Positions 19,999 to 46,340 of a stretch of 64,000 nt of DNA are shown here, one piece after another. Position 1 is the first letter of the stretch. Every line of letters begins with the position of its first letter. The stretch is from Methylococcales bacterium. Lineage in GTDB: Bacteria; Pseudomonadota; Gammaproteobacteria; Methylococcales; Methylomonadaceae. The notes beneath the pieces were generated by a model, which saw nothing but the letters and a program-made list of their open reading frames with translations, ran no database searches and was not told the origin of the DNA. A program made the position numbers and the translations under genes. The stretch is taken from the NCBI GenBank assembly GCA_030949405.1, contig JAUZSN010000002.1:2528553-2592552 (forward strand), written 5' to 3'.

Positions 19999-20012
19999 TG
20001 TTACTCTCTCTA

Positions 20013-21627: not shown

Positions 21628-21673
21628 ACGTTTATTAAAATATCATCAAATCAAAACAATTCAATTGAAAAAA

Positions 21674-23302: not shown

Positions 23303-23311
23303 GGTTTTCAC

Positions 23312-26300: not shown

Positions 26301-29300
26301 TTAACCCATAAAGGCAATGGGTTCACAAAGTAACCATAAACCTCTGCAAACTCTGCCTGTGTCCGTCCTGCAACAGGACTACCAATAATAATGTCATTTT
26401 GCTGCGTGTACTTGTGCATCAATGTGTAATAAAGACTCAACAAGGCCATAAACATAGTGGCCCCTTCATTTCTAGCAAGCGTTTGTAGCTGTTTTGTTAA
26501 GTCTGCATTAATTTCAAAATTATAAGAGGCCCCATTATTGGTCATGACTAACGGGCGTTTTTTATCCGTTTCTAAGGCCAATTGAGGAATATTTTCAGGT
26601 AAACGATTACGCCAAAATTTATAGAGTCCTGACCCTCGAATACTATTAATTAAACGCGATTCCCATTCGACAAAATCACGATAACTGGCCTTAGGTCGTT
26701 CAATTTTGATAGTCTCTTCTTTGAGATAGCGAGCATATAAATCTTGCATCTCATTTAAAAATTTATAATTTGACCACGCGTCAGAAACGATATGATAAAT
26801 CGTAATCGCAAAATAATAACTGTCTTCGGCTTGACGATAAAGTCGAATACGTAACAATGAATCATTTTCTAAATCAAAAGGATGTTGATTATCTTCAATC
26901 ACCTGTTGACGAATACTTTCCCAATCTTGATTGGCCACATCAACTACGGTAAATTCAAAAGGTCGATGCGCATAGATACGTTGTACGGGCTCACCCTCCA
27001 CCACATAAAAATTTGCGCGTAACCCTGGATGACGTTGTACCACCCCGTTTATGGCTTTATCTAATATATCCAGTTTTAAGACAGATGGAATATGCATCAC
27101 GCCACCAATGTTATAAGCCGCACTGAGAGGATTAAGCTGATGGGTAAACCAAATCGCTTTTTGCCCAAAAGATAAAGGGTATTCATCTTCAATTTCAGCA
27201 TTACAACTCGTTGCGTTCGTACACAAACAATTATCATCAGTCTCTACCCCTACATCAAGACTCACTTCGTTTGCTATCGCTTTCGTTTTTGATGCCGCTA
27301 ATAAAATTATTTTTTCATTCAATTCTGCGGCTAACTGAGTAATATTTAAATTTCCCAATAACTTCACGACACTTAACCGTTCTCCAAAATGTCCTAACAA
27401 GCGATTATTTAATTCCACCCCCATAATAGAGTCGATCCCTAAAGCAACTAAGGTATCGGTTGCATTTAAATTCGCTATATCTGTACGTAGAATGGTAGCC
27501 ACTAAGGTTTTGAACTCAGTTTCAACTAAATTTTTTCGCTCATTGGCTTCACAGTTTAAATAGCACGATAAAAAATCACCCGCATCTTCATCCCTCTCAT
27601 CTTTGGTAACCAATTCTTTAAAGAGATGCGGTTTTTTAGGGTACCACGCCAACACTTTATTCCATTGAGCATCACAAACCGATAACTGGGGATTAGGCAG
27701 CGTTAAAATTCGCTCTAATACTTTAATGCCCGCATCGGGTAAAATGGGGGGCATTCCTCGTTGTTCTTTATAATGATGCCCTAAGCCCAATTCTTTAATC
27801 ATCCCAATGGCCCAAGGCCCCCAATTAATACTCAATGCAGGTAAGCCTTGACTACAACGGTAATGAGCGAGTGCATCTAAAAAACTATTCGCACTGGCAT
27901 AATTGACTTGTCCTGCGGTTGTGACTTGAGCGGCAATGGATGAAAACAAAACAAAATAATCTAAGGGGGCTTTCTTTAAACACTGATGTAACGTCAGTGC
28001 GCCAATTGTTTTCGTATCATAAACTTCATCAAAATCATCGGTTTCCATGGCAGAAATCAAAGTATCTTTAACCACCCCTGTACAAAAGAAAACGCCCCGT
28101 ATAGGCGGGTAACCTCGTTGAGCAAAATCATCAAAATAATAGCGTAGCTCGCGATCTTGAGTCACATCAATATCCGCTAAAATAACCTCAGCCCCCATCG
28201 CCTCCAATTCCTTAATGAACTTAATCCGTTCATACAAACGATGATCGCTATCAATATGCTGCCACGTTTCCCGTTTTGGAAATGCACTGCGCGTAATTAA
28301 TAATAAGCGTCGTGCGCCACGGTGAATTAAAAGCTTACAAACTAAATGTCCAATTGCACCAAATCCACCTGCGACTAAATAACACGCATCTGTTTTCAAA
28401 TGAACAGGAAAAGGACGTTTTAACGTTTCAGGGGCCACTAAACGATTGCTATAACGTCGCTGTTGTCGATAACTAATTTCTTCTTCGCTATCAAGCCCTA
28501 ACTCTAATATGACATTGTCACTATTTGATTCAGAATCCAAATCAATATGCGCACCCCAGTTTTCACACAGTTCATGTTGCGCTAAAACACGGCTAATACC
28601 AATCATAGAGGCGGCAATAGCATTTAAATTCTCAGCATCTTCGGTAACAACGTGTCCATTGCTACTTAGGATCCAAAGTTTGCCTTTAATTTCAGTTTCT
28701 ACAATAACTTTTGATAATAATAACAAGGAGTGTAAACGCATTTTTTTCAGTTGTTCAAGTTCTCTTGCACCCATTTCATCAAATGAAGGGGTCGCGTCTA
28801 AACCTAAACAATGAATAATGCCACTATCTGCACCATACTGTTGATAAAAATCGTGTACACATTGGCCTAGTTGCGAAAAATTATTAGTCCGTAAACTAGC
28901 CCGATTAAAATCCGTTGCCATGCTATAAGCTTGAGCGGAATTAACCAAACAAACTGCCGAGCCTTTGCCCCGTAGTTTTTCAGTTAATGTTTCAGCAATG
29001 CCTCCGTCATCCGCAAAAATTAAATAGGCTTTCTTCAAAGCCAGCGTATTAATTTCTCCTAGCTCTTGTTCCATCCATTGGGTTTGATATAACCAACTAT
29101 CAATCGTGTTCGTATTCATTCCCCCCGCAACGGAATCCACGGCTTGTGCATTAAATCCCTTTAAGACCCCTAAAACCTCACCTTGGTCATTACATAAACT
29201 TAAGTTACCAATAATCTTTTCTTCATCACGCGAAATGATTTCAGTTAAACACCAAAATTGATCGCCTATTTCTGCATTAATATTAATTTCGTTAATGGCA

Positions 29301-32300
29301 ATCGGCAATCGAACCACAAAATCTTCTGGTGCGGAAAGCCCCTCAATTTCATTAATCAATAAGGTTTGTAAACACGCATCTAATAAAGCTGGATGTAAGT
29401 GATAACCCGCACTATCTAATTTCGATGAAAGTACAATTTTTGCGAGTACTTGATTTTCACTTAAATAAGCCGTTTCAATAGATTGAAAATGATGGCCGTA
29501 TTGATAATCAAACTGAGCTAATAATCCATAACAGGTTTCTTTATCAATGGATTTATGACTGTTATTCCGTTTAGAATCAAGATTGATGGCAGGAGCTAAA
29601 TGTTTTACCCCACGACTACGAATAAAGCCACTAATATGCTGGTCTTCTTGTACCAACGGATCGTTTGAACTCTCGGTATCCATCGCCACAGAGCGACTAA
29701 TAATTTTAAGTTTTGATTGGGGTTCATCAATAACCAATTTTAAGTCAGGATTTTTATCATCACTGAGAAAAACACCTTTGTCTATTCTTAGGTTATCAAT
29801 ACTGTAAAAACCCGCGCCCCAATGCTGATTCAAGGCAGCATAGATCATTTCAATATAACCTGCCGCAGGAAATAAGCAGCTATCTTGAATAACGTGATCG
29901 TTTAGGTACGGATATTTTTCCAAACTAACATCACTATCCCATAAATTATAGGTTTGAGCATTCTTAACCCCCAATAAAGGCTGGTGTACTTCCCCTTGAC
30001 GTAACGTTTGATAAAAAGGCGTTTCATACCAATGCTTATCTTGTCGCCATTGATAACGGGGCATCCGTACAAAATGTCCATTAGGATACATCGTATTCCA
30101 ATCCAGCTGAAAACCTAAACCATTCAACGACGCTAAGACCCCATAAAAATCGGTTTGTTCTGGAAATTTACGACGAATGGAGTACAACACTCGACTTTCT
30201 GCCTCTAAACTGGTTGCTATTTCACCAATAGAAGCCGCAAGAACAGGATGGGGACCGATTTCAAGAAAATACTGAAAATCATCTATAAAAATAGCCGAAA
30301 TGGCTTTAGCAAAAGCAACAGGTTCACGAACATTACGCCACCAGTATTCAGCATCCCCTTCTTCACCCGTTATTTTTTCACCCGTGACGGTTGAATATAA
30401 ATCGGTATGCGCTACTTGAGGCGAAAGATCAGCTAACGACTCGAATAATTCATCCTTAATTTTTTCCATAATAACACTATGGTAAGGCACTTCGACGCGT
30501 AAAAATTTATTAAATATTTCTTGTGCCTGTAATTGTTGTGCAATGTTTCCCAAGGCATCCGCATCGCCTGTTAACGTGACGGCACCTGGGCTATTAATCG
30601 CACCAATAGAAACATTCGGCTCATGTGGAGCAAGGTAAGGCATTACCGCTTGTTCCGACAATCCTACCGCTAACATTTTTCCCATGCCGCGTGTTAAATG
30701 CTGCAAACGACTACGGTGAATAACAATTTTTACCGCATCTTCTAGACTATAAACACCCGCTAAGTAAAAAGCGGCTACCTCACCCGTGCTATGTCCAACA
30801 ATCGCTTTGGGCTGAATACCATAAGATTTCCATAACTCAGCTAAGGCAACTTGTACGGCAAAGTTAGCCGTTTGTGCCAACCAAGTCTCAGCCATTTTAG
30901 ACTGATCTTCTGAGGTAAATAATTCATCTTTTAATGACCAATCCACCCATTTTGAAAATTCATCATCAATTTTATCAAGGGTCTCACGATAAACAGGCTC
31001 AGTTTTATACAGTTCATGCCCCATTCCCCACCACTGAGGCCCCATTCCCGTAAATACCCAGACTAAATTTGATTGTTCAGTTTGAGTTTGCTCAACAAAA
31101 ACCCCTTCATTCGATTTTTCTGCGGTATAGTCCGCTAAACGACTTAAAAGCTGTTCTTTACCGTTATAAATAAAGGCCACCTTATAAGCATGTTGTTCAC
31201 GGACACAAGCACTGCTATACGCTAAATGATAGAGTTCCGTTTCATCCTTAAGCCCTTGAATATGCGTTTCATAAGCCTGTGCTTGACGAATTAACGAATT
31301 TTTATCATTGTGACTAATAACCAATAATTTAGGCTGTTGGGTTACGCTAATCTCAGCTTTCGGAGTGGGTTGATATTCTTGGAGTACGATATGAGCATTA
31401 GTTCCACCAAACCCAAATGAGTTAACCCCTGCAAGTGCTAAGCCTTCATGTTTAGGCCAAGGTGTTAATGTTGTTGGAATCGCGTAGGGGTATTGATCAA
31501 ATGCAATAGCAGGATTCGGATTAACAAAATGCAAATGCGGGGGAATTTGCTGATGTTTTAACGCCATCACTGTTTTTATAATTCCAGCTGAACCCGCCGC
31601 CGCTTCTGTATGGCCTATATTGGTTTTAACCGAACCGATAAAACAAGAGTCATCTGAGTGACGATCAATATTTAGTAAATTTCCAACAGACTCGGCTTCA
31701 ATAGGATCACCGACAGGCGTTCCCGTCCCATGAATTTCAATATATTGTATTTTTCCTGGCGAAACATTTGCCCGCTTATAAGCGGTTTTCATTAAATTTA
31801 ATTGGGCTTCAGAACTAGGAACGGTAATTCCATGGGTTCGTCCATCTTGATTAACCGCACTGCCTAAAATAACCGCATGGATATTATCCCCATCGGCCTC
31901 GGCTTGAGACAGTTTTTTAAGAACAAAAACCCCGACCCCTTCGGAACGAACATAACCATTAGCAGTGTCAGATAAGGCATGAGAGGAGCCTGTAGGCGAA
32001 AGAAAGCCGCCTTGTGATTCAGAAACCGTATACTGGGGCGCAAAATTAGCTAAAACGCCGCCCGCTAAAGCAATTTCACTATCACCTTGTTGTAAGCTAC
32101 GGCAGGCTAGATCGATACTCACAAGTGACGAGCTGCACGCCGTATCAACCGTTAAGCTTGGGCCTTTAAGATTATAGATGTACGAAATACGATTAGAAAG
32201 CATTGTCATCATCACCCCCGTAGCGGTGTGAGCATCAATATTATTAAAATTAGGGTTCGTAAATTGTAAAATCTTATAATCTAACGTAAAACCACCAATG

Positions 32301-32710
32301 TAAACACCGACCGCTTTACCGCTTAATTCCGACGGTTTTAGCCCCCCTTCTTCAATCGCTTCCCAGGTTACTTCCAATAATTTACGTTGTTGAGGATCCA
32401 TATAATCCGCTTCTCTTGGCGAAATACCAAAAAATAAAGGATCAAACTCATCTAGCCCATCAATATAGCCCCCCCATCGCGTATTTATTTTTCCCTTTTT
32501 TCCTTTTACTTTAGAAAAATAAGTTTCGGTATTCCAGCGACTTTTAGGGGTAGGCTCTAAGCAATCTACTCCGTCCTTTATATTATCCCAAAATTGATAA
32601 GGGTCATTCGCGCCACCGGGGAAACGGCAACCCATACCCACAATAGCAATCGGCTCATAATCTAGTTTTTCACGGGTAGAGTTTTCTGAATTGGAGTTTT
32701 GTTGAGTCAT
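23312..32710 (-). CDS. Iterative hybrid PKS-NRPS, KS-AT-DH-KR-ACP-C-A-PCP-TE, PTM-type
   Basis: 3132 residues from the ATG at 32710 (a TTG at 32734 is an alternative). Approximate domains: KS 20-445 (DTACSSSL, HGTGTPVGD, NIGHTEAAAG), AT 545-845 (GHSTGE; VPYHS, probably malonyl), DH 905-1195 (HVIQDSCLFP, DACLQ), KR 1440-1640 (VAGGFGAIG, NYASAN), ACP 1725-1795 (GIDSIMG), C 1850-2290 (YHIVSDAW), A 2310-2790 (FTSGSTGRPK, NSYGTSETT), PCP 2815-2885 (GGNSLYL), TE 2900-3130 (GYSLGG, GRHED). There is no ER or methyltransferase, so unreduced polyene chains are expected. Specificity residues read by hand give DVGEVASIDK, near the ornithine code. One PKS plus one ornithine NRPS module is the PTM synthase layout, in which two polyene chains are placed on ornithine and closed to a tetramate. 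The DH has Asp for Gly in HxxxG and the C motif is YHxxxDA instead of HHxxxDG. Confidence 0.92.
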   Translation of the reverse strand: MTQQNSNSENSTREKLDYEPIAIVGMGCRFPGGANDPYQFWDNIKDGVDCLEPTPKSRWNTETYFSKVKGKKGKINTRWGGYIDGLDEFDPLFFGISPREADYMDPQQRKLLEVTWEAIEEGGLKPSELSGKAVGVYIGGFTLDYKILQFTNPNFNNIDAHTATGVMMTMLSNRISYIYNLKGPSLTVDTACSSSLVSIDLACRSLQQGDSEIALAGGVLANFAPQYTVSESQGGFLSPTGSSHALSDTANGYVRSEGVGVFVLKKLSQAEADGDNIHAVILGSAVNQDGRTHGITVPSSEAQLNLMKTAYKRANVSPGKIQYIEIHGTGTPVGDPIEAESVGNLLNIDRHSDDSCFIGSVKTNIGHTEAAAGSAGIIKTVMALKHQQIPPHLHFVNPNPAIAFDQYPYAIPTTLTPWPKHEGLALAGVNSFGFGGTNAHIVLQEYQPTPKAEISVTQQPKLLVISHNDKNSLIRQAQAYETHIQGLKDETELYHLAYSSACVREQHAYKVAFIYNGKEQLLSRLADYTAEKSNEGVFVEQTQTEQSNLVWVFTGMGPQWWGMGHELYKTEPVYRETLDKIDDEFSKWVDWSLKDELFTSEDQSKMAETWLAQTANFAVQVALAELWKSYGIQPKAIVGHSTGEVAAFYLAGVYSLEDAVKIVIHRSRLQHLTRGMGKMLAVGLSEQAVMPYLAPHEPNVSIGAINSPGAVTLTGDADALGNIAQQLQAQEIFNKFLRVEVPYHSVIMEKIKDELFESLADLSPQVAHTDLYSTVTGEKITGEEGDAEYWWRNVREPVAFAKAISAIFIDDFQYFLEIGPHPVLAASIGEIATSLEAESRVLYSIRRKFPEQTDFYGVLASLNGLGFQLDWNTMYPNGHFVRMPRYQWRQDKHWYETPFYQTLRQGEVHQPLLGVKNAQTYNLWDSDVSLEKYPYLNDHVIQDSCLFPAAGYIEMIYAALNQHWGAGFYSIDNLRIDKGVFLSDDKNPDLKLVIDEPQSKLKIISRSVAMDTESSNDPLVQEDQHISGFIRSRGVKHLAPAINLDSKRNNSHKSIDKETCYGLLAQFDYQYGHHFQSIETAYLSENQVLAKIVLSSKLDSAGYHLHPALLDACLQTLLINEIEGLSAPEDFVVRLPIAINEININAEIGDQFWCLTEIISRDEEKIIGNLSLCNDQGEVLGVLKGFNAQAVDSVAGGMNTNTIDSWLYQTQWMEQELGEINTLALKKAYLIFADDGGIAETLTEKLRGKGSAVCLVNSAQAYSMATDFNRASLRTNNFSQLGQCVHDFYQQYGADSGIIHCLGLDATPSFDEMGARELEQLKKMRLHSLLLLSKVIVETEIKGKLWILSSNGHVVTEDAENLNAIAASMIGISRVLAQHELCENWGAHIDLDSESNSDNVILELGLDSEEEISYRQQRRYSNRLVAPETLKRPFPVHLKTDACYLVAGGFGAIGHLVCKLLIHRGARRLLLITRSAFPKRETWQHIDSDHRLYERIKFIKELEAMGAEVILADIDVTQDRELRYYFDDFAQRGYPPIRGVFFCTGVVKDTLISAMETDDFDEVYDTKTIGALTLHQCLKKAPLDYFVLFSSIAAQVTTAGQVNYASANSFLDALAHYRCSQGLPALSINWGPWAIGMIKELGLGHHYKEQRGMPPILPDAGIKVLERILTLPNPQLSVCDAQWNKVLAWYPKKPHLFKELVTKDERDEDAGDFLSCYLNCEANERKNLVETEFKTLVATILRTDIANLNATDTLVALGIDSIMGVELNNRLLGHFGERLSVVKLLGNLNITQLAAELNEKIILLAASKTKAIANEVSLDVGVETDDNCLCTNATSCNAEIEDEYPLSFGQKAIWFTHQLNPLSAAYNIGGVMHIPSVLKLDILDKAINGVVQRHPGLRANFYVVEGEPVQRIYAHRPFEFTVVDVANQDWESIRQQVIEDNQHPFDLENDSLLRIRLYRQAEDSYYFAITIYHIVSDAWSNYKFLNEMQDLYARYLKEETIKIERPKASYRDFVEWESRLINSIRGSGLYKFWRNRLPENIPQLALETDKKRPLVMTNNGASYNFEINADLTKQLQTLARNEGATMFMALLSLYYTLMHKYTQQNDIIIGSPVAGRTQAEFAEVYGYFVNPLPLWVNFDQNPNFVTLLKDVRETTLMGLENQEFPFSLLVDRLEIEHDPSRTAIFQVMFVLLNHQVDRTHIDENNVAHYDGFPMQLLQMPEEEGQFDITLSVYEEKGVYYATFKYNTDLFVESTIVRMAEHFLEIAKQAVATPQTAVSTYHLPTPNEQTLLKQWSGVETQAAPIDRQNFISVHQTIEGIAQTAANQMAVQMTNDSGESDGITYAQLNADANQMAHALKAEGVNHGDVVGLYLKKSPKLIIALLACLKVGASYLVLDGDLPIERLKQMLEISATSCLLKASHAVDTSTLEIKAYAVDELGSDHSKENLNLTLSPEQGAYIVFTSGSTGRPKAVLVTQENIATMATAWKNQYTLENTHVHLQMAHISFDVFCGDWIRALSNGKTLQLCPRNSVLNMPLLLETIETNQVDFAEFVPTVIRKLVSYAQQKGKKLPFKMLVIASERWTLEDYHALLTVTDARIFNSYGTSETTIDSTFFEVTTDSIASLHDLSEGIPIGRPFENNTVYVLDNTLNPVPVGIVGELYIGGSGVCKGYVNESEQTEALFIPDPFNRESEQYLYKTGDIVKWDEQGQLHFLGRKDTQVKVRGHRIELSEIENTVLAYQNIEQAVIVIQNNATQEPCLCAYYQVMADTTVDENNLQRHIAEHLPSYMMPEFFQQIDKLPELDNGKVNLNALPKPQRISSSNFQAPETLYEIKMAEIWGKMLGTQSVGVYDDFFELGGNSLYLIELMIQIQDVFNIKITVNQLFKLSTLAGMSKTVEEVITGKIEGALPYICYNEQPNNPQYLFSFPPAGGYSIVYETLAAHLPPHSLLSFNYLTDEDKISQYASLISGLQPQGDIKLFGYSLGGNLAFEVGVELEKQGRQVSDIIIMDSYRIVDDLTISDELLTDFKMELREHFKKHTGSDKVEEHTMAQANNYIDFSYQQKNLQLTNAAVHYIVENNDADPHRENKLKSWEGSSKTQTELYVGTGRHEDMLLGENAKIHADLIQTILKKI

Positions 32711-32789
32711 AATGATCTTATAGTTTGCGGTCAAAAGAACCGAGTGAACTGATGATATAAATAATTAAGTTGTCGTTTGCTTTACTAAT

Positions 32790-35543: not shown

Positions 35544-37166
35544 TTAATGTTTTTCACTAGAAATAATATGTCCATCTTCTAGCTTAATAATTCGATCGGC
35601 TAAATGAAAATATTTATCGTCATGTGAAACAACAATAACCAGACGACCTTCCGCTTTTAAGTCAGGTAAAATTTCCTCATAAAAACGCTGTCTAAATTCT
35701 GGGTCTTGATCGGCTGCCAATTCATCAAAAATACAAATAGGTCGGTTTTTGAGTACCGCAATAATAAACGCTAAACGTTTCTTTTGTCCTGTTGACAAAT
35801 CTATATTGGTAAATCGTTGGTTTTCATAATGCGTTTTTTTATCTAATTGTAGACGTTTCAACCAATCATTAACCTCTGATTCTTTAACATCAGGTAAGCC
35901 ATAAACACGGTCAAACAAATAAAAATCGGTTAAAACAATAGAATAAAGTGCTTGGTAGCTGGGATAATTTTCAGGACTAATTCTCTCATCATCCACATAA
36001 ATATGCCCTTGATCTGAGTGATATAAGCCCATGAGTAATTTTAGAAAGGTTGATTTTCCACTCCCATTACCGCCCACTATAAAAATCATTTCATCCCGCT
36101 GAATCGTTAAATTATGCGGCCCAGATAAAAATAATTTATGTCCTTGCGGGTCTGTATAATGAAAGCGTAAATTTTCCAGGCGAATCGTATTAAAATGCTG
36201 ATATTTTTCAGGCTCTTGTGGCTTTTGGCTTTGAATGGAACTATCTAATTTTTCTTCAAGCCCATAAAGGTTTTTAATCGCTGATTCCGTTTTCATTACC
36301 ATACTTAAAGCCCCTGTAAACATACCCACAGGGCCAAAAATAAATAAGATGGTAGCAACAACTTTATGCGCTTCTGCTGATGTTGTTTCAATAAATAAAG
36401 GAAATAGTGACACCACTAAAAGCAATAACAAGTAAAAAACAAAATTTCCTAGCATGGCGGCAAAAAAGAGCCGGGTATTCGCACTGACTTTATATCGCTT
36501 CGCATCTTTAATTGACTGCGTTAAATGATTGAACATATCATCATTTTCACAGCGGTTGACTTGCAGCTCTTTAAAGCCATGCTGCATCGCCGTAAATCTA
36601 TTGAGAAACTCAGCTTCTTTCTTTTCAGCCATATCTAGCTCTATACTGGTTTGTTCATAGTGGCTAAAAAAAGTAAACACGCCAACACCAATCATAACCA
36701 GCGTTAGCATAAAACTCAATGGCGATAGCATCGCAAGGTAAATGCTACTAAAAAGCAGCACTAACAGGGATTGTGCGGCCATCACTATTTTCATGGCCGC
36801 TTGAGAGATTAAGGTAGAGTCTTGTGTTAAGGCGGTATAATTGCCTATTTCAGGATTATGCTCAATAAATCGTAAATCAACCCGTCGAATTTTATCGGTA
36901 ATCCGTAATTTAACGTGATGCAGGGCTTTTTCAACGGCATTAATTGATTTAACAAAAGCAATTTTTTGCGTATAAATAAAGAGTAGTAGGGCAATAATAT
37001 AAACAACAAATAACCGCGCACTTAATTCTCTATTGTAGACTTGTGCCGCCGCTAAGTTAATAATCGCTAATAGTAAACCATTGGCAATACCCGAGACAGC
37101 GGCCATAAATAGAATTTGCTTTTTAGGAGCTTCCGATTCACGCGCTAAAAAGTGAAATAGTTTCAT
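35544..37166 (-). CDS. Cyclic-peptide-type ABC exporter (SyrD/PvdE-like)
   Basis: 540 residues with the same plan as its downstream paralogue: about six membrane helices, then an ATPase with GGNGSGKST, LSTGQKKRLAF and ICIFDELAADQDPEFRQRF. The C-terminus (LEDGHIISSEKH) is intact. Its ATG directly follows the TAA of the acyltransferase gene with no spacer, a sign of coupled translation. Two consecutive half-size exporters suggest a heterodimeric pump. Substrate is inferred from the neighbouring megasynthase to be an amphipathic polyketide-peptide. Confidence 0.9.
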   Translation of the reverse strand: MKLFHFLARESEAPKKQILFMAAVSGIANGLLLAIINLAAAQVYNRELSARLFVVYIIALLLFIYTQKIAFVKSINAVEKALHHVKLRITDKIRRVDLRFIEHNPEIGNYTALTQDSTLISQAAMKIVMAAQSLLVLLFSSIYLAMLSPLSFMLTLVMIGVGVFTFFSHYEQTSIELDMAEKKEAEFLNRFTAMQHGFKELQVNRCENDDMFNHLTQSIKDAKRYKVSANTRLFFAAMLGNFVFYLLLLLVVSLFPLFIETTSAEAHKVVATILFIFGPVGMFTGALSMVMKTESAIKNLYGLEEKLDSSIQSQKPQEPEKYQHFNTIRLENLRFHYTDPQGHKLFLSGPHNLTIQRDEMIFIVGGNGSGKSTFLKLLMGLYHSDQGHIYVDDERISPENYPSYQALYSIVLTDFYLFDRVYGLPDVKESEVNDWLKRLQLDKKTHYENQRFTNIDLSTGQKKRLAFIIAVLKNRPICIFDELAADQDPEFRQRFYEEILPDLKAEGRLVIVVSHDDKYFHLADRIIKLEDGHIISSEKH

Positions 37167-38927: not shown

Positions 38928-39443
38928 CTATTGTGAACTAACAAATGCTTTACCTTCTTCATAAAGCTCTTCAAAGTGATTTCTAGATTTTTTGGCATCA
39001 AAGGTTAAAAACGTACCCCCTGACTCAAAATGCCCAACAAACAACTTTCCAACGGCATACGTTGATGCCGCCCCAATAATAGCCGTACTAATTACGCCCG
39101 CTGTTTGACCCACCACAGGAATAGATTTAAGTAAGCTTGCAAGCGGTAATACCATACTGATAGCAACAGAACTACTAAGTAAGGTACTAATGAGAGATGA
39201 CGCTAAATTCTTATAGAATGGAACACCATAATCACGGGCTAAACGATGCAGTAATTTTAATTTAATGGCGGTTAATGCGCTAATATCAACTAAGGGAACA
39301 GGAATAAAACCAAGACCCGCTGCTATTATGGTATAATTTTTTACAGCCTCATGTGCGCCCCCCAGTCTCTTTACTCGAACATCTAAATAATTATTACCAC
39401 ATTCCATTTCAATTGCTTTTTCTTTATTTAAAATTATCGCCAT
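38928..39443 (-). CDS. DUF697/YcjF-type membrane protein, paralogue A
   Basis: 171 residues. The core GLGFIPVPLVDISALTAIKLKLLHRLARDYGVPF and the glycine/alanine-rich hydrophobic stretch (about 85-145) with ending HFESGGTFLTFDAKKSRNHFEELYEEGK match the C-terminal DUF697 domain of YcjF and of some GTPases, here without a GTPase. It is clearly related to the 191-residue protein at 43769 over its whole length. The ATG follows AAGGGG. DUF697 proteins are inner-membrane or membrane-associated with unknown biochemistry. It is divergent from the SPFH gene at 39939. Confidence 0.82.
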   Translation of the reverse strand: MAIILNKEKAIEMECGNNYLDVRVKRLGGAHEAVKNYTIIAAGLGFIPVPLVDISALTAIKLKLLHRLARDYGVPFYKNLASSLISTLLSSSVAISMVLPLASLLKSIPVVGQTAGVISTAIIGAASTYAVGKLFVGHFESGGTFLTFDAKKSRNHFEELYEEGKAFVSSQ

Positions 39444-39938
39444 GCTTTTTCCCCTTGTTAATTCTTCAACAATATCGAGGAATTATACATATCACAAATT
39501 TTAAAAGCAATAAAACCCGTATTTCTCATAAAATCTTGATTATTAACTAATTCTAAAACTCAAAAATAAAAGTTAAACAAATAGTTTTACAATTTACAAT
39601 TTTACGATTATTATGACAGAATAAGAATGGCTAGATACTAAAGGAATAAAAATATTTGCCAATTAACCCCATAATAGAGTCCTATTAAAACCATTTATAT
39701 TACAATTTCTTCTCAATTTTAAAATTTATTACAGCCTAGACCAAATTCAAAAATTAAATAGATGAACCGAGGTTTTCATAGATCAATACGACTATAAATT
39801 TATTGAATTATTAAAACAGGCGATCATTTATTCAGGTACTTTAGTTAATCTTGATACCCTACGATAACACTATACAAAAGCATTTTTATTCCTAAATTTT
39901 AGTGATGAAAGGACGTTTTTTTTGCGAGTTACTTTACA
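39444..39938. other. 495-bp AT-rich divergent intergenic region
   Basis: It separates the minus-strand DUF697 gene from the plus-strand SPFH gene and should hold both promoters. I see no credible coding frame, RNA fold or clear promoter consensus; the only short open frame (39353-39550) overlaps the DUF697 gene antisense and lacks support. Confidence 0.6.
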
Positions 39939-40991
39939 ATGAAAAATATATTTTTATTTGTTTTTTTAAAAAAAACAATCCACTTTTGTATTAAAATTTT
40001 CAGTCACTTTAGACACTGGGTTCGTGAAAAAATAGCTTATTTTGTCGTTGTTTTTTTAGCAATTACACTAGGGTTTGTCTTTTTCTGGCCTCAAATTGTG
40101 ATCACCATTGAGTCAGGTGAGGCGGGTGTATTATATAGGCGTTTCTTTGGTACGGTAACGGATAGAGTTTTCCCCGAAGGGATTCATGTTATTTACCCTT
40201 GGGATACATTAACCGTCTATAACCTTCGCATTCAAACTGTTTTACATGAATTTAACATTTTAACAAACCAAGGTCTGCCTATCACCATTAGTTTGGCGAT
40301 ACGATATCGCCCTGAATATGAAATGCTTGGTGTTTTACATCAACAAGTTGGGCCTGATTATGTTCAAACGATTATTATTCCTCAAGTGGAATCTGTTTTG
40401 CGGAAACGTTTGAGTCTTTATGACCCCGAAGATATTTACACCAATAAGCATAACATTTTAACAAAAGTGGTTGTTGAGGCTTTAGAAGAACTCGGAAGAA
40501 AATATATTACAACCAGTGGCATTATTATTCGTTCCATTATTTTGCCTGATTCTATTAAAGATGCCATTGAAAAAAAATTAATTGAAGAGCAAGCAGCAAA
40601 AGCCTATACGTTTACGCTACAAAAAGAAGAGCGGGAAGCTGAACGTAAGCGCATTGAAGCACGAGGCATTAAAGATTATCAAAAAATTATTGCTCAAACA
40701 CTTTCGGATCAGCTCATAAGATGGCGTGGAATTCAAGCAACACTAGAGCTTGCAAAATCTAACAACAGTAAAGTCATTGTTATTGGTGCCGGGAAAAATG
40801 GTTTACCCATTATATTAAATGATGGACCCTCTTCTAATGCGGTTAATACTAACAATAAACCCGAAGAAATAATAAACCCAAATTCAATACCCCCTATTCC
40901 TCCTTCCACAGAGAAAAATCAAAATAATACTGATTCCGAAATCTCTTTCAACCCCTCTGAAAAAGCCTCCTTAAAAGAAGATGCTAACTAA
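39939..40991 (+). CDS. SPFH/prohibitin (band 7) domain membrane protein
   Basis: 350 residues: an N-terminal membrane anchor (IAYFVVVFLAITLGFVFFWPQ, about residues 32-52), an SPFH domain (VTIESGEAGVLYRRFFGTV, GIHVIYPWDTLTVYNLRIQT, about 52-235), a long charged coiled coil (KKLIEEQAAKAYTFTLQKEEREAERKRIEARG split by the family pattern, about 205-245) and a disordered Asn/Pro/Ser-rich tail (275-350). SPFH proteins oligomerise into membrane microdomain scaffolds. The stop overlaps the start of the next gene by 11 bp, so the scaffold and the following receptor-like lipoprotein are translated together. Confidence 0.88.
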   Translation: MKNIFLFVFLKKTIHFCIKIFSHFRHWVREKIAYFVVVFLAITLGFVFFWPQIVITIESGEAGVLYRRFFGTVTDRVFPEGIHVIYPWDTLTVYNLRIQTVLHEFNILTNQGLPITISLAIRYRPEYEMLGVLHQQVGPDYVQTIIIPQVESVLRKRLSLYDPEDIYTNKHNILTKVVVEALEELGRKYITTSGIIIRSIILPDSIKDAIEKKLIEEQAAKAYTFTLQKEEREAERKRIEARGIKDYQKIIAQTLSDQLIRWRGIQATLELAKSNNSKVIVIGAGKNGLPIILNDGPSSNAVNTNNKPEEIINPNSIPPIPPSTEKNQNNTDSEISFNPSEKASLKEDAN

Positions 40992-43230
40992 AATTATTTT
41001 TTTTATTTGCTGTTTAGCAGGGCTACTTTTGAGCGGTTGTTTTGATGAGTCGTATCATGAAAAATCAACACACCGTGCTAAAATTGCTGAACAAAACAAG
41101 CAAGAACCCATTCTTATCGGCATTTCTTGGGAAGAAAATGATCAATCATTTTTAGACGGCGTAAATTTAGCGATTAAAAAAATTAATAATAGTGGTGGAA
41201 TCCTCGACCGTCCTTTAAAAGCTATTATTAATATCGATGAGAGTAAGTTATGGGATCCTACCTTGTCAGCAGGTGGCTATCAGGATATTGTTAATGATAT
41301 TGCCGAATCATTCACTAGTAATCCTAATATTGTAGCGGTTATTGGCCATATCACCTCAAAAACAGCCTTATTAGCCTCTGTTATTTATGAAAACAATGGC
41401 CTCCTCTTTTTAACCCCCAGCGCAACTAACATAAAATTAACAAATCACCAATTCAATTACGTTTTTAGAACCATTCCTAGTAATCGAGAAATGGGGGTGA
41501 ATTTAGCTAAGTATATTGCTGAAAAAGGGTATAAAAAAATAGCCTTACTCTACGACAGAGAGGTTTATGCTACCGAACTATCGAATACTTTTTCCTCTTA
41601 TATCAGTGAAAAGCATGGTGCCAAAATAGTCTATCGACAATCATTTTTTAGACATACACTTGATATAGAAAGTTTAGTCATTGAACTCAATAAAATACCA
41701 GCTATTGATATTATTTTTGTGGTATCAACCGATAAAGTCGTTACAAAAATCTATCAAAAAACCCGTGACATCGGTATTAGAACCCCCTTTGCAGGAGGTG
41801 AGGCCTTAGATGTCCCCTCTTTTTTAAAAATGGTTAAAGAATGGGAAAATGAAAAAGAGTTAAAAAAATCAATTGTCCCCACATTATTCAACCCTCTTCT
41901 CGTACAAAGTCAAAAATTTATAGCCCTTTTTAAAAAAGAATACGGTGAAGACTTACAACCTAATCAACAAACTGCTTTAGGCTATGATAATATCATTCTT
42001 TTAGCCCATGCGATTAAACGCGCCGAATCGACTGTTTCGCTTAGAATTGCAGACACCTTGCGTCACATGCCTCCTTGCCAAGGCATTACAGGAAAGTATC
42101 AGTTTTCAGAAGAAGGTGAGTTGATAAGTAAGCCTTTTTATTTTAAAGAGCTTCATCAAGGTAGCTATGACTACTTGCAGGTTAAAAATACAAAAAAAGA
42201 CGCTGTCATAAATTTTGAAATTTGCAATGAAATTGATAGAGATAACGATAATATTCCCAATAACCTTGATACTTGCCCAGAAAATACCGCCAAAGAAATC
42301 TCACAAGGTGTTTTTTTAACGGGCTTATTAAGAGGTTGTCCTATTGATAATGATCACGATACCGTCCCTGACTACAAAGATATTTGCTTAAAAAATACGT
42401 TAGAAGAAATATCTAAAGGCATCGATAGCCAAGGATGTCCTCTAGATTCTGATAAAGATGGAAAAGCAGATTTTGAGGATGCTTGTCCTAAAAATCCAGA
42501 ATTAATTGAATTTATTAGTGGACAAAACTGTGTTAAAGACAGTGATCAGGATGAAATTACCGACGATATAGATCAATGCCCTCAAAATACCAAGATAGAA
42601 ATTACAAAAGGGGTTAATAAAACAGGCAACAAACAGGGCTGTCCTATTGATACGGATTACGACAAACGTGCAGATTATATTGATCACTGTCCCAATAACA
42701 CAAGACCAGAAATAAGCCAAGGCGTTGATAATAAAGGCTGCCCTTCTGATAATGACCACGATGGTATACTCGACTATCAAGATCAATGTTTAAACACCCC
42801 CCTTAATATCCTCATTGATTCTCAAGGCTGTGGTATCGTCGAAAATAGCATTATGGAACACCCCTTGGCCTTGTATTTTAAACAAGGTCAGGTTACGCTA
42901 ACCCTAGAAGGAAAAGCCTATTTAGAGGCTTTATTAGGATATATTGAAAAAGATACCTTAAAAAAAATCAAGATTACTGTGCATAACCCGAGTCAAGATA
43001 ATAATTTCGATAACACTAATCATCAATCCTTATCTGAAGAACAGGCGACAACCATTGATACTTATTTACAAAACCAAGGGATTGCCTGTGAAAAAATTAT
43101 TCCTGTCGGAAAAGGCCCCAACGATCTTGTTACCGATAAGAGTCCTGAAGAACTTAAAAAAAACCACCGTTTAGAAATTATTTTAATCCAATTTAGAAAA
43201 AAAATACTTAGTCATGAAAAAGAGAATTAA
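40981..43230 (+). CDS. Lipoprotein fusing type 1 periplasmic binding domain, TSP3 repeats and OmpA-like domain
   Basis: 749 residues. A lipobox (LLLSGC) anchors it; residue +2 is Phe, which predicts the outer membrane. Residues about 40-400 are a Leu/Ile/Val-type receptor domain (ILIGISWEENDQSFLDGVNLA, AVIGHITSKTALLASVIYEN, FLTPSATN). Residues about 415-620 contain six thrombospondin type 3 calcium-binding repeats with D-x-D-x-D cores (DRDNDNIPNNLDTCP, DSDKDGKADFEDACP, DNDHDGILDYQDQC). The end (about 625-745) is OmpA-like (NHQSLSEEQATTIDTYLQNQGI, NHRLEIIL), normally a peptidoglycan-binding fold. I read it as a ligand sensor tethered between outer membrane and cell wall. Its start overlaps the SPFH gene. 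I know no standard family with this exact three-part layout. Confidence 0.88.
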   Translation: MLTKIIFFICCLAGLLLSGCFDESYHEKSTHRAKIAEQNKQEPILIGISWEENDQSFLDGVNLAIKKINNSGGILDRPLKAIINIDESKLWDPTLSAGGYQDIVNDIAESFTSNPNIVAVIGHITSKTALLASVIYENNGLLFLTPSATNIKLTNHQFNYVFRTIPSNREMGVNLAKYIAEKGYKKIALLYDREVYATELSNTFSSYISEKHGAKIVYRQSFFRHTLDIESLVIELNKIPAIDIIFVVSTDKVVTKIYQKTRDIGIRTPFAGGEALDVPSFLKMVKEWENEKELKKSIVPTLFNPLLVQSQKFIALFKKEYGEDLQPNQQTALGYDNIILLAHAIKRAESTVSLRIADTLRHMPPCQGITGKYQFSEEGELISKPFYFKELHQGSYDYLQVKNTKKDAVINFEICNEIDRDNDNIPNNLDTCPENTAKEISQGVFLTGLLRGCPIDNDHDTVPDYKDICLKNTLEEISKGIDSQGCPLDSDKDGKADFEDACPKNPELIEFISGQNCVKDSDQDEITDDIDQCPQNTKIEITKGVNKTGNKQGCPIDTDYDKRADYIDHCPNNTRPEISQGVDNKGCPSDNDHDGILDYQDQCLNTPLNILIDSQGCGIVENSIMEHPLALYFKQGQVTLTLEGKAYLEALLGYIEKDTLKKIKITVHNPSQDNNFDNTNHQSLSEEQATTIDTYLQNQGIACEKIIPVGKGPNDLVTDKSPEELKKNHRLEIILIQFRKKILSHEKEN

Positions 43231-43320
43231 AATATATAATAATTTATACTCCGGTACTTAAATAGAATAAATGTAATTAGTTATTTTTACACTCAAACCA
43301 ATTCAACTTAGAGTGATTTT

Positions 43321-43515
43321 ATGTTAGACCCCCTACTATTAAATTTTTTAGCCAGTATAACGATTGCTTTATTAGGTATAAATCGAAAAATGGGTTTTTG
43401 GGGGTATTTTTTTTCCTCGTTGCTTCTTGGCCCTTTGATGGGTATACTTCTCTTACTTGTGTCTAGTTCAAAACCAAGGCCACAGGTAAAAAAAGAACCC
43501 AATAAAAATAATTAA
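43321..43515 (+). CDS. Small two-helix membrane protein
   Basis: 64 residues: two hydrophobic segments (LLLNFLASITIALLGI and GYFFSSLLLGPLMGILLLLV) and a basic Lys/Pro-rich tail. A weak AGAGTG lies before the ATG. It follows the receptor lipoprotein by 90 bp and precedes a DUF697 gene, all on the same strand. An opposite-strand frame covers the same bases but encodes no membrane pattern. The function is unknown. Confidence 0.6.
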   Translation: MLDPLLLNFLASITIALLGINRKMGFWGYFFSSLLLGPLMGILLLLVSSSKPRPQVKKEPNKNN

Positions 43516-43768
43516 TGCTCTTTATTGCGCAAATTATAAAACCTCTACCTATCGCTTACATCAACTCAAAGCCACTAGATAAATAATGATGTAGCCTCTG
43601 AAAAGAAAATTACAGTTAAACCTTTACTGTCGGTCATTCTTGATGAATTAGGAATTTCTTAAATAGTACGATTAAGAACGCTACCCTTAAAAATCAAGGG
43701 TAAAAAATGTCAAACTAACTTACCTTTAAAAAGCCAAGTTATCTTAAAATCTGTAAGGAGAATATAAA

Positions 43769-44344
43769 ATGGCAGTTACTGCAAAAAAAAATACCGCAAC
43801 AAAACCGCAAGAAACTCAAGAAAAAGTAGAGACTAAAGCGACTGAAACGCCACTTGACTCTAGAGTAGCCCGTCTTGCAGAGACGCATGAAATTGTTAAA
43901 AACCATACCATGGCAGCCGTAGGTGTTGGTTTTATTCCTGTCCCTTTTGTTGATATGGGAACATTAACCGCAATCCAACTAAAAATGCTTTATAGCCTTG
44001 CTAAATGCTATCAAGTCCCTTTTTCAAAAAATTTAGTAAAATCACTAGTAAGCTCACTCTTAGGAAGCTCACTTGCTATTTCTATTGCCCTTCCCGTCGG
44101 TAGCCTCCTAAAAGCAGTTCCTATCATTGGCCAAACGTCTGGCATGATTAGTACGGCGTGTGTTGGAGCAGCCTCTACGTATGCTGTTGGAAAAGTTTTT
44201 GTTGCTCACTTTGAATCAGGTGGTACTTTTCTTGACTTTGATGTTGAAAAAGCCAAAGTGCATTTTAAAGAACTTTATGAAGAAGGAAAAAGCTTTGTTA
44301 GCACCAAAAAAACAACAGAAGTAGAAGCAGAAGTTAAAGCCTAA
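43769..44344 (+). CDS. DUF697/YcjF-type membrane protein, paralogue B
   Basis: 191 residues. After a Lys/Thr/Glu-rich N-terminus (about 1-35) it aligns throughout with paralogue A at 38928: GVGFIPVPFVDMGTLTAIQLKMLYSLAKCYQVPFSKNL, then SSLLGSSLAISIALPVGSLLKAVPIIGQTSG, then FVAHFESGGTFLDFDVEKAKVHFKELYEEGK. A strong ribosome site (AAGGAG) lies 8 bp before the ATG. The two paralogues bracket the SPFH and receptor genes, suggesting a shared membrane assembly. No GTPase partner such as YcjX is present. Confidence 0.85.
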   Translation: MAVTAKKNTATKPQETQEKVETKATETPLDSRVARLAETHEIVKNHTMAAVGVGFIPVPFVDMGTLTAIQLKMLYSLAKCYQVPFSKNLVKSLVSSLLGSSLAISIALPVGSLLKAVPIIGQTSGMISTACVGAASTYAVGKVFVAHFESGGTFLDFDVEKAKVHFKELYEEGKSFVSTKKTTEVEAEVKA

Positions 44345-44364
44345 ATCATATAGGATGTGCTATT

Positions 44365-45666
44365 TTGTTTGTTTTAAAAAATATTTTTTTAGTGGTATTT
44401 CTATCGGTTATTTCTGTAAAAGCCATTGCAAATATCACTATTTTAACGGTTGATAGCCAGCAAAAAACAGCCCAAGAAATAGGTTATCAATTAGGCATAA
44501 AAATTAAAGAAAATTTTCCATATATGGAATATCGTTATGATAATTACTTAAATTTTTTATTAAGCGATAGTCGTTTTAAGCAATTAAATGATCAAGCAAA
44601 TTTATTAAAACAACAACTTAACTCGGATAACCGTTTAGAAATTAATGCGGTTGCCGATGTATTAAGCCTAGTGAGTACCGATCGACTCGGTGACGGCAAG
44701 CTTTCTGTCAATGAATTTTGGTTATTACAATTTCTGAGTGATTTAACGACAATCAACAAAGGCGTTGCCATTTCAGTTTTTGATCCTATCCAGAAAACAC
44801 CTATTATTGCAAGAAATATTAATTGGAAAAATAATTCCGTTCTAAACCCTTTACATCTGATTACGATTTATAAATCAAAAAAAAATACCTTCGTGACTGT
44901 CGGTTTTGCAGGTATGCTAGGGGTTATTAATGGGTTTAATCGTCATGGTTTATTTGTTTCATTAATAAACTCATCGCCACAATTACAAACCGCCATTATT
45001 TCACAAAACCATCAATCAGTCGCATTCACACTTAAAAATACGCTCAAAAAAAATACGGATATTAGCACGGCAAGTCGTTTTTTACATGGCCGTCATTACC
45101 CACATGACCAACAAATTTTACTGGCTGATAAAAAAAACGTACAGGTGCTAGAAAGTCCTGCAAATATAAAAAAAGAAGGCACCGTTAGACTGTCTAATAG
45201 CCCTTTAGTGAATCGATTTTCAAGCTTTGAAAATAAATCAAATCAATTTATTTTGGTTGGATGTTTTGTATTGATTACCTCCCCTAAGAACTGTTACTCT
45301 AGTAACAATTATTATCGCTGGAATCGTTTACAACAGCTTTTAGACTCGTTTGACCCAAGTTTTCCGACGACTAACTTATTAACAATCATGCAGGATGATA
45401 ACAATCATCATCAATCTATCTTTAATGATAATGTATTGCAAACGCTTATTTTTATGCCTTTAAACCAAACGCTTTACCTTTATACCTATTCAAACTCTGA
45501 ATCATCAAAAAATGATTTTCAAAAACTACAGTTGATAGAAAATTTAGAGTCTAAAGATCTAGATCCTGAAATGTTGGTTTTTATTATAAGTGATATTATT
45601 TTAATAGCCTTGCTAGGCTCTTTTTTTTATTATAAAAAATATAAAAAGTTACGCATCAAATCATAA
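44365..45666 (+). CDS. C45/choloylglycine-hydrolase-like membrane protein lacking an evident Cys nucleophile
   Basis: 433 residues from a TTG start 9 nt after AGGA. A signal peptide (FVLKNIFLVVFLSVISVKAIA) precedes a domain like N-terminal-nucleophile hydrolases of the acyl-coenzyme A:6-APA acyltransferase/acid ceramidase-like group: ARNINWKN and VGFAGMLGVINGFNRHGLFVSLIN are its typical motifs. In active members a Cys starts the mature chain about 20 residues before the N-W motif; here that region is LTTINKGVAISVFD and has no Cys. A C-terminal membrane helix (MLVFIISDIILIALLGSFFYY) with a basic end anchors it to the inner membrane. It is probably exported with the active domain in the periplasm. 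It follows DUF697 paralogue B by 20 bp. Confidence 0.65.
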   Translation: MFVLKNIFLVVFLSVISVKAIANITILTVDSQQKTAQEIGYQLGIKIKENFPYMEYRYDNYLNFLLSDSRFKQLNDQANLLKQQLNSDNRLEINAVADVLSLVSTDRLGDGKLSVNEFWLLQFLSDLTTINKGVAISVFDPIQKTPIIARNINWKNNSVLNPLHLITIYKSKKNTFVTVGFAGMLGVINGFNRHGLFVSLINSSPQLQTAIISQNHQSVAFTLKNTLKKNTDISTASRFLHGRHYPHDQQILLADKKNVQVLESPANIKKEGTVRLSNSPLVNRFSSFENKSNQFILVGCFVLITSPKNCYSSNNYYRWNRLQQLLDSFDPSFPTTNLLTIMQDDNNHHQSIFNDNVLQTLIFMPLNQTLYLYTYSNSESSKNDFQKLQLIENLESKDLDPEMLVFIISDIILIALLGSFFYYKKYKKLRIKS

Positions 45667-45773: not shown

Positions 45774-46340
45774 ATGATTCAAGAAACGATTGTAACGACG
45801 ATTAATCAACATGGCGTTACTCATATTGCCCCAATGGGGATTCATCACCTTAATGATGAGTTTGTTATTTTACCTTTCAAGCCATCAACAACTTTGGATA
45901 ATATTTTACGTTCAAAAATAGCGGTCATTAATTATTGCGATGATGTCCGTGTATTCGCAGGTTGTTTAACGGGGCGAAAAACGTGGGATTTACAGGCGGC
46001 TGAAAAAATTAATGCTTACGTACTAACGAACACCTTAGCCCATAGTGAATTAGAGTTACTACGTGTTGAAGATGATAAGGTTCGACCTAAATTATTTTGT
46101 AATTGTATCCATAGCGTCAATCACGCGCCCTTTAAGGGTTTTAATCGCGCTCAGTATGCTGTATTAGAAGCGGCTATCTTATGTAGTCGTTTAAAATGGT
46201 TACCCTTAGAAAAAATAGAAACCGAGCTTAATTTTTTACGAATTGGACTCGAAAAAACAGCGGGTGAGTCAGAATGGGAAGCTTGGGGGTGGCTAATGGA
46301 GTTAATTGAGCAACATAAAAATAAGGTTACAAAAACATGA
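45774..46340 (+). CDS. DUF447 family protein (methylotroph C1 metabolism)
   Basis: 188 residues with the DUF447 pattern: ETIVTTINQHGVTHIAPMGIHHLNDEFVILPFKPSTT, SKIAVINYCDDVRVFAG, NCIHSVNHAPFKGFNRAQYAVLEAAILCSRL. The fold is a flavin-reductase-like split barrel. DUF447 genes occur in methanogens and in bacteria with tetrahydromethanopterin-linked formaldehyde oxidation, where they lie with pterin and methanofuran genes. The stop overlaps the start of mfnB by 4 bp, so the two are coupled. The exact reaction is not known to me. Confidence 0.85.
   Translation: MIQETIVTTINQHGVTHIAPMGIHHLNDEFVILPFKPSTTLDNILRSKIAVINYCDDVRVFAGCLTGRKTWDLQAAEKINAYVLTNTLAHSELELLRVEDDKVRPKLFCNCIHSVNHAPFKGFNRAQYAVLEAAILCSRLKWLPLEKIETELNFLRIGLEKTAGESEWEAWGWLMELIEQHKNKVTKT

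Follow-up and report, generated by a model that had tools for sequence, protein, structure and literature searches.

A prohibitin-like SPFH gene recurs with DUF697 and cyclic-peptide-type ABC exporter genes in many bacterial lineages, often beside nonribosomal peptide and polyketide synthase genes

Introduction

Which cellular process brings together the genes of a prohibitin-like SPFH protein, two DUF697 proteins and a receptor-like lipoprotein? The question is raised by a locus in a 64,000-nt stretch of the genome of Methylococcales bacterium (assembly GCA_030949405.1, contig JAUZSN010000002.1, positions 2,528,553–2,592,552 of the forward strand; the whole stretch is called the window below), where an earlier note, made from the sequence alone, had proposed that six genes encode a cross-envelope assembly. 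Analysis of the window and of related loci revealed that SPFH, DUF697 and an ATP-binding cassette (ABC) exporter of the TIGR01194 (cyclic-peptide export) type form a recurrent set in many lineages, which often lies beside nonribosomal peptide synthetase (NRPS) or polyketide synthase (PKS) genes and usually has the gene of a binding lipoprotein or its relative directly after the SPFH gene. We judge it somewhat probable that this module serves the adjoining PKS-NRPS as a dedicated membrane platform, on which its product is exported and handled.

It is a largely unsolved question how Gram-negative cells release large NRPS/PKS products unharmed, and the module offers a testable handle on this problem. 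To our knowledge, the known clusters with TIGR01194-type exporters have not been described as having a dedicated prohibitin-like SPFH protein, DUF697 or a binding lipoprotein. A full-text literature search, judged by titles and the beginnings of abstracts and with most subscription papers outside its coverage, returned no account of the SPFH-DUF697-exporter set in NRPS/PKS clusters. Work with a Tba-TID mutant in a balhimycin producer identified a paraslipin, which is also an SPFH protein, and suggested that it lies close to the glycopeptide exporter Tba, possibly in a membrane microdomain (PMC11960670). The likeness to our locus is an SPFH protein close to the ABC exporter of an NRPS product; the difference is that the host is an actinomycete and that the passages considered here describe no in-cluster SPFH gene, DUF697 or binding lipoprotein (PMC11960670). 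A term search of the main text of a study on methanotroph secondary metabolites found none of the words SPFH, band 7, exporter and transporter (PMC11964084). The parts belong to known families, while their combination and consistent partnership look new and the gene set is apparently undescribed.

Results and discussion

The gene set of the window

The locus consists of the following genes, where L023 denotes the corresponding locus of a congener (genome G002) and the loci of other genomes are numbered in the same way.

23312..32734, minus strand: PKS-NRPS of 3140 amino acids (aa), Pfam domain order ketosynthase (KS), acyltransferase (AT), dehydratase, ketoreductase, carrier, condensation (C), adenylation (A), carrier, thioesterase; N-terminal part 85% identical over 706 aa to the PKS of L023
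33891..35525, minus strand: ABC exporter 1, cyclic-peptide export type (TIGR01194, 292.6 bits; cut-off 286.2)
35544..37166, minus strand: ABC exporter 2, cyclic-peptide export type (TIGR01194, 323.3 bits; cut-off 286.2); 79% identical in L023
37167..37697, minus strand: hexapeptide acetyltransferase-like protein (NCBIfam WbbJ/WcaF-type matches, all under curated cut-offs); kept in L023
37794..38060, minus strand: 88-aa protein without NCBIfam family; kept in L023
38075..38830, minus strand: S-adenosylmethionine-dependent methyltransferase (Pfam Methyltransf_24); 75% identical in L023
38928..39443, minus strand: DUF697 protein a, divergent copy (Pfam, 41.6 bits; cut-off 27.7)
39939..40991, plus strand: prohibitin-like SPFH protein (Band_7, 96.5 bits; cut-off 23.6) with an N-terminal membrane segment at about residues 28–58
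40981..43230, plus strand: lipoprotein with a Leu/Ile/Val-type binding domain, TSP3 calcium-type repeats and OmpA (Pfam)
43321..43515, plus strand: two-helix membrane protein of 64 aa (hydropathy; family c7)
43769..44344, plus strand: DUF697 protein b (Pfam, 49.6 bits; cut-off 27.7)
44365..45666, plus strand: C45/acid-ceramidase-like protein with a C-terminal membrane anchor and Gly133 for the nucleophile Cys (NCBIfam, hydropathy, alignment)

The last six genes are those of the earlier note, and both their positions and the domain calls made for them are sound. What the note, which stopped at 38928, overlooked was the adjoining PKS-NRPS and the two cyclic-peptide-type ABC exporters, which together with the tailoring genes lie just beyond DUF697a, on the strand opposite to the SPFH block. 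The neighbourhood therefore unites a multidomain assembly line, an exporter and tailoring genes, as an NRPS/PKS cluster does, and both ABC proteins, which pass the TIGR01194 cut-off and adjoin a PKS-NRPS, resemble in this respect the SyrD/PvdE/YojI-type exporters of NRPS clusters. At E<=1e-60, with 26 of the 40 first-look candidates scored, these two (genome positions 2562464–2565661, corresponding to 33.9–37.1 kb of the window) were the only TIGR01194 genes found in the window's genome.

SPFH orthologues (E below 1e-40) were present in nine of 60 related genomes, including four of five from the same genus. In L023, a single strand carries SPFH, the binding protein, the small protein, DUF697, the methyltransferase, the 88-aa protein, the acetyltransferase, two ABC genes and the PKS in this order, which shows that both halves of the window locus belong to a single unit. 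L023 has neither the C45 gene nor the second DUF697. The window has this set in two divergently oriented blocks, each with its own DUF697 copy, an arrangement that an inversion with duplication would leave. Since the PKS directly follows the ABC genes in L023, two transposase-like open reading frames (ORFs; recognised by eye) that separate the PKS-NRPS of the window from its ABC genes (32812–33738) look like an insertion. As for the other congeners, the ABC exporter gene directly precedes SPFH in L021, and neither exporter nor NRPS/PKS was found beside the module in L022 and L024, a FabF-like gene excepted.

Linkage of the SPFH gene in other genomes

The loci for the wider survey were chosen by SPFH sequence alone. 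A profile search of genome contigs yielded 214 relatives, and the best 80 loci were analysed with at most 10 kb on each side, neighbour families being defined by unbiased clustering. They came from Methylococcales, Thiotrichales, other Pseudomonadota, Thermodesulfobacteriota, Nitrospirota, Planctomycetota, Verrucomicrobiota and a few other groups; 46 loci reach at least 15 kb, and near-copies occur among the 80 (L061/L062/L063/L070, L057/L069, L060/L072 and L096/L098). The earlier note had staked its proposal on the neighbourhood occurring in some other genome, and it is indeed conserved: the binding-protein gene is the next same-strand ORF after SPFH in 63 of the 80 loci, with a gap of at most 20 bp or an overlap in 54 of these 63. 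Altogether, a binding protein was found in 68 loci, an ABC exporter in 40 and DUF697 in 37 by clustering (39 by hidden Markov model, HMM), followed by phosphopantetheinyl transferase (13), thioesterase (11), the small membrane protein c7 (11) and the C45-like protein (6). The exporter was of the TIGR01194 type, and no more than about 10 kb from SPFH, in 36 of the 80 loci (37 of 41 clustered ABC proteins checked matched TIGR01194 at E<=1e-55); its gene stands directly before SPFH in 17 of 79 loci, and in 11 of these 17 the two genes are within 20 bp or overlap.

NRPS/PKS genes were counted by a strict rule, which left out L030, whose KS stands alone and has the size of FabF, and L107, which shows nothing but an adenylation domain. 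By this rule they were present in 23 of 80 loci (15 of the 46 loci of at least 15 kb), and they accompanied the TIGR01194 exporter, occurring in 18 of 36 loci with it versus five of 44 without it. The simple ORF caller overlooks genes in GC-rich DNA, so the locus counts for families, NRPS/PKS and exporter adjacency may be low. The linkage is spread over the SPFH tree, which has long branches and unsure deep forks and was therefore used solely to show this spread.

Several carrier genomes hold many Condensation domains, so that a chance neighbourhood in genomes rich in natural-product clusters had to be considered. Against this stands the scarcity of the exporter: 29 of 39 carrier genomes searched hold just one or two TIGR01194 genes (E<=1e-60), and still the 36 loci mentioned above have one at most about 10 kb from SPFH. 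Ten paralogous SPFH loci from the same and related genomes (182 kb in total) had no NRPS/PKS, DUF697 or binding protein, and a single weak generic ABC match was found in one of them. The co-occurrence across a class-wide set of 276 genomes pointed in the same direction. With thresholds of E<=1e-40 for SPFH and E<=1e-60 for TIGR01194 and Condensation, TIGR01194 was held by seven of nine SPFH-positive and eight of 267 SPFH-negative genomes (Fisher p 9.8e-9; with the window's genome left out, six of eight SPFH-positive, p 1.4e-7), and Condensation domains by six of nine and 35 of 267, respectively (p 4.6e-4); these statistics ignore relatedness, no more than four candidates per genome were scored in the TIGR01194 step, and an in-frame stop interrupts three of the nine SPFH matches. 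Three of the seven genomes with both have the exporter and SPFH on one contig, at distances of about 4, 11 and 44 kb. In one locus of this set (L132) an NRPS gene directly precedes SPFH and the binding protein, and in another (L139) no recognised partner was found. Given the adjacency and co-occurrence counts and the repetition of the arrangement in separate phyla and on plasmids, coincidence is hardly credible as an explanation.

The plasmids were searched by tblastn, which gave 19 records, mostly from Azospirillum, and six were examined. All six carry a TIGR01194 match (E<=1e-50; over the curated cut-off in four) within about 20 kb of SPFH, five have a single DUF697 match within 5 kb of it, and four have NRPS genes or domains in the vicinity. 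NRPS was not found for A. brasilense p1 and the Rhodobacteraceae plasmid, the latter of which has a large gene annotated as 4′-phosphopantetheinyl transferase superfamily protein. The annotation of the Skermanella mucosa plasmid lists a cyclic peptide export ABC transporter, a prohibitin family protein, an MbtH family protein (on the opposite strand) and three NRPS genes, with DUF697 nearby, and the order in Azospirillum argentinense is NRPS, TauD-type dioxygenase, ABC, ABC, hydrolase, DUF697, small protein and prohibitin family protein. On Tistrella mobilis pTM3, DUF697 (669.6–670.1 kb), ABC (667.5–669.1 kb) and SPFH (666.5–667.4 kb) are adjacent on one strand; the first two were found only by HMM search. 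This trio adjoins the sole NRPS cluster found on the plasmid (674.9–724.4 kb; two KS and 14 Condensation matches, some of which are pieces of one domain), which is probably the didemnin cluster. That cluster is reportedly located on pTM3 and comprises eleven NRPS and two PKS modules. No binding-protein gene was found beside SPFH in five of the six plasmid loci, while L143 has one about 9 kb off. Consequently, the widest core is SPFH, DUF697 and ABC, and the binding protein is a very frequent addition in other groups.

The proteins of the module

The SPFH profile matched solved prohibitin-2 (2.4e-25) far better than HflC (5.6e-5). A hydropathy segment at residues 28–58 precedes the SPFH domain (56–230), and the basic N-terminus together with this one membrane segment suggests that the large domain is probably periplasmic. 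An SPFH domain with one N-terminal membrane segment is also what the prohibitin, HflK-HflC and flotillin scaffolds have, whereas the genetic partners here are the exporter, DUF697 and the binding protein; neither FtsH nor NfeD was found in a Pfam scan of nine window genes (SPFH and its neighbours).

The two DUF697 proteins, which the earlier note had described as related and flanking SPFH, are indeed 61% identical over 164 aa. The pair is unusual, as 32 of the 37 DUF697-bearing loci (by clustering) carry a single copy. The model of DUF697b has five helices (mean predicted local distance difference test, pLDDT, 80.8), and none of the 170 Foldseek matches reached E<=0.001, so that no solved relative was found. 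DUF697 is paired with a GTPase in YcjX/YcjF-like systems; a crude motif screen, however, revealed no GTPase-like ORF in the window, in agreement with the earlier note, and found one in one of the 37 DUF697-bearing loci. The window DUF697 thus lacks the adjoining GTPase gene of a YcjX/YcjF-like system by this screen. The tiny membrane protein of the note was corroborated by two hydrophobic segments and by homologues in all four same-genus loci (L021–L024) and in one of five others (L027).

The lipoprotein gene overlaps the SPFH gene by 11 bases, as had been noticed before. Its product begins with a hydrophobic segment ending in LSGC and matches Peripla_BP_6 with 97.2 bits (cut-off 31.7), TSP_3 in five stretches with 45.3 (25) and OmpA with 42.8 (27.2). 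The model is confident (mean pLDDT 89.8), and the nearest solved chains of the binding domain are 4mlc and 4q6b, the latter solved with leucine (template-modelling score, TM-score, 0.90–0.91 by target length, 30% identity). Fold and sequence are therefore those of the Leu/Ile/Val-type binding proteins (4mlc/4q6b, LivJ/LivK), from which the window protein differs by its fusion to TSP3 repeats and OmpA and by variability in the LivK Glu stretch. Ser126 and Thr149, which presumably align with the ligand-binding Ser and Thr of leucine-binding proteins, are conserved in 57 and 54, respectively, of the 74 homologues, and the stretch aligned with what we take to be the amino-group-binding Glu of LivK is variable. 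The kept residues and the variable stretch suggest an amino-acid-like or peptide ligand. In loci L073, L074, L088 and L100, of Desulfobacterota type, three consecutive binding-protein genes follow SPFH.

Such a fold could also belong to a receptor for an amino acid, a peptide or the product, with SPFH and DUF697 relaying a signal that tunes synthesis or export. The additional binding proteins (SBP_bac_5 domains in nine of the 74 scanned; family c13, whose scanned member is SBP_bac_3, in six of 80 loci) and the fusion of DUF697 to a binding protein in L044 fit this idea. On the other hand, kinase, GGDEF and regulator domains were absent from the 10 Pfam families of the 74 binding proteins, and the commonest partners are enzymes and exporters, which makes a sensing role improbable. 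No import permease or ATPase of the kind that belongs to a branched-chain amino-acid ABC importer was seen among the identified recurrent neighbour families, where not every ORF was scanned.

The earlier note had named the fusion of binding domain, TSP3 and OmpA and the DUF697 pair among the parts of the system. Both are present in the window, but they are minority forms: the Peripla_BP_6 class was detected in 71 of the 74 homologues scanned, whereas OmpA was found in seven and TSP_3 in 10, and the DUF697 gene is mostly single. The OmpA domain is compatible with a further possibility, that the NRPS/PKS make a structural compound of the envelope which the module puts in place, that is, a cross-envelope assembly in another form. 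The SPFH matches include many genera with presumed filamentous or sheathed life style, such as Thiothrix, Leucothrix, Crenothrix, Sphaerotilus, Beggiatoa-like bacteria and Electrothrix. Nevertheless, the module also occurs in Azospirillum, Skermanella, Pseudoalteromonas, Delftia and Tistrella, and its pTM3 neighbour is probably the cluster of didemnin, a secreted compound; surface or sheath biogenesis is thus very improbable.

The C45-like protein was called a membrane-anchored hydrolase-like protein in the earlier note. The hydrophobic segments at its N- and C-termini agree with the first half of this description, but catalysis is questionable. Its likeness to the C45/acid-ceramidase-like Ntn (N-terminal nucleophile) hydrolases amounts to 76.6 bits against C45_proenzyme NF040521, under the curated 85, and the nucleophile site is Gly in all eight module-linked homologues, in contrast to the Cys of the two closest references (L120 and L121). 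A distant reference (L123) aligns a Cys one residue later, where the module homologues have Ser/Thr in five of eight cases and Val/Ile in three, the window protein (Gly133, then Val) being among the latter. On sequence grounds, the window protein is probably non-catalytic; activity by another residue is possible for some of its relatives and unlikely for the protein itself. PvdQ acts in periplasmic maturation in the pyoverdine system, and a similar maturation by the C45-like protein was considered and rejected, as the nucleophile Cys is replaced by Gly in all eight homologues.

None of six proteins matched a PADLOC anti-phage defence family at E<=0.001, and phage records contained no match.

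A possible export platform

The cross-envelope assembly proposed earlier survives as a conserved set of envelope genes, but not as a free-standing system, since the set is tied to natural-product clusters with an ABC exporter and NRPS/PKS. The platform that we somewhat favour could work as follows. Like prohibitin and HflK/C, the SPFH protein would assemble into a ring or cage that sits on the inner membrane at its outer face, and this cage, DUF697 and the small membrane protein would gather the ABC exporter and perhaps a membrane-associated synthase. The exporter would then move the product into the periplasm under the cage. The lipoprotein, presumably tied to the outer membrane by its lipid and, in the window, to peptidoglycan by OmpA, may bind the product or its peptide or amino-acid part and carry or buffer it towards the outer membrane, while the C45-like protein, lacking the nucleophile, would be a binding rather than a cleaving partner. 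In some genomes, the last step of product exit would be supplied by a nearby system of resistance-nodulation-division (RND) type; in L028 and L029, what we take from sequence resemblance to be an RND pump with membrane-fusion and outer-membrane proteins is encoded near the module.

The same linkage data also support self-protection, and this is the main rival of the platform. Here, the SPFH cage and DUF697 would shield or repair the inner membrane and the lipoprotein would mop up periplasmic product, with ABC export proceeding independently. SPFH proteins protect Bacillus membranes from bacteriocins, and immunity genes often lie beside exporters. However, the binding domain is of the amino-acid class and not an obvious antibiotic sponge, and the adjoining assembly lines differ (the sequence covered shows KS-AT or C-A alone, or the two together), so that protection would need a generic target. 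We consider self-protection rather unlikely, although less so than the sensing or surface roles.

A number of observations speak against the platform or narrow it. No strict NRPS/PKS, TIGR01194-type ABC, phosphopantetheinyl transferase or thioesterase was found in 36 of the 80 loci, many of them on short contigs, and 12 of the 80 have no binding protein. The ABC gene before SPFH is of another type in four loci (L047, L054, L057 and L069), with best matches to CydC/CydD, and an ABC family of C39-peptidase type (c17, one member scanned) occurs in five, which suggests that some modules may handle a cargo other than NRPS/PKS products. SPFH and the exporter are on different contigs in four of the seven genomes with both. 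With OmpA in merely seven of the 74 binding proteins, the peptidoglycan tether cannot be general, and the loss of the nucleophile removes the PvdQ-style maturation step from the scheme.

A bolder version of the platform, to which we give tentative credence only, is a phylum-spanning secretion machine in which a prohibitin-type periplasmic cage surrounds the exporter, DUF697 is the membrane partner and the receptor lipoprotein the carrier. It would serve chemically unrelated NRPS/PKS products, probably including didemnins, and would then count as an export machine of a new type, not as accessories of an exporter. Through the module, DUF697 proteins and one branch of the prohibitin-like SPFH proteins would gain a biological role, and an unstudied methanotroph-type cluster is connected to the probable didemnin cluster, whose product is of medical interest. 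As a three- or four-gene module beside an exporter in many phyla, it is also a marker for finding uncharacterised clusters.

Variants of the module and neighbouring genes

The loci with the C39-type ABC (L047, L052, L054, L057 and L069) belong to Electrothrix, Mariprofundaceae, a Magnetococcales metagenome-assembled genome and Pseudoalteromonas. A 171-aa partner is encoded alongside, and in four of the five the binding protein has several TSP3-like motifs; perhaps these loci are a peptide-export version of the module. In L050, L056, L065, L068, L071 and L075, from Thiothrix, Leucothrix, Crenothrix and their relatives, the genes of the c13 binding protein and the ammonium-transporter-like membrane protein c8 come after the module, and some c13-type loci also have the P-type ATPase-like c18. 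Family c26, whose scanned member matches Beta-lactamase/serine hydrolase (E 7e-45 in L074), adjoins the module in L073, L074, L081 and L109 and could be a periplasmic activating enzyme. Ten of the 80 loci (L030, L032, L061, L063, L070, L071, L093, L096, L097 and L098) encode beside the module the lipoprotein-like family c10, whose members have a QMLLN motif and a length of about 370 aa; the scanned one had no Pfam match. Families c24 (resembling histidine methyltransferase by eye), c32, c33 and c34 are common to L061, L062, L063 and L070 of uncultured Methylococcaceae and L141 of Thiothrix fructosivorans, and a larger common cluster is possible. Thiomargarita-labelled genomes and Desulfonema, which we take to be filamentous or sheath-forming, are further common SPFH carriers among L030–L109.

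Beyond the PKS-NRPS of the window, two CrtI/carotenoid-isomerase-like oxidoreductases are encoded at 19579–23311; the second gene is seemingly interrupted (overlapping frames 20013–20423 and 20323–21627) and lies beside a short fragment resembling the major facilitator superfamily. At the other end, the module is followed at 45774–47023 by genes of DUF447 and 4-(hydroxymethyl)-2-furancarboxaldehyde-phosphate (4-HFC-P) synthase, the latter of the methanofuran-type cofactor pathway, which fits a C1-metabolising host.

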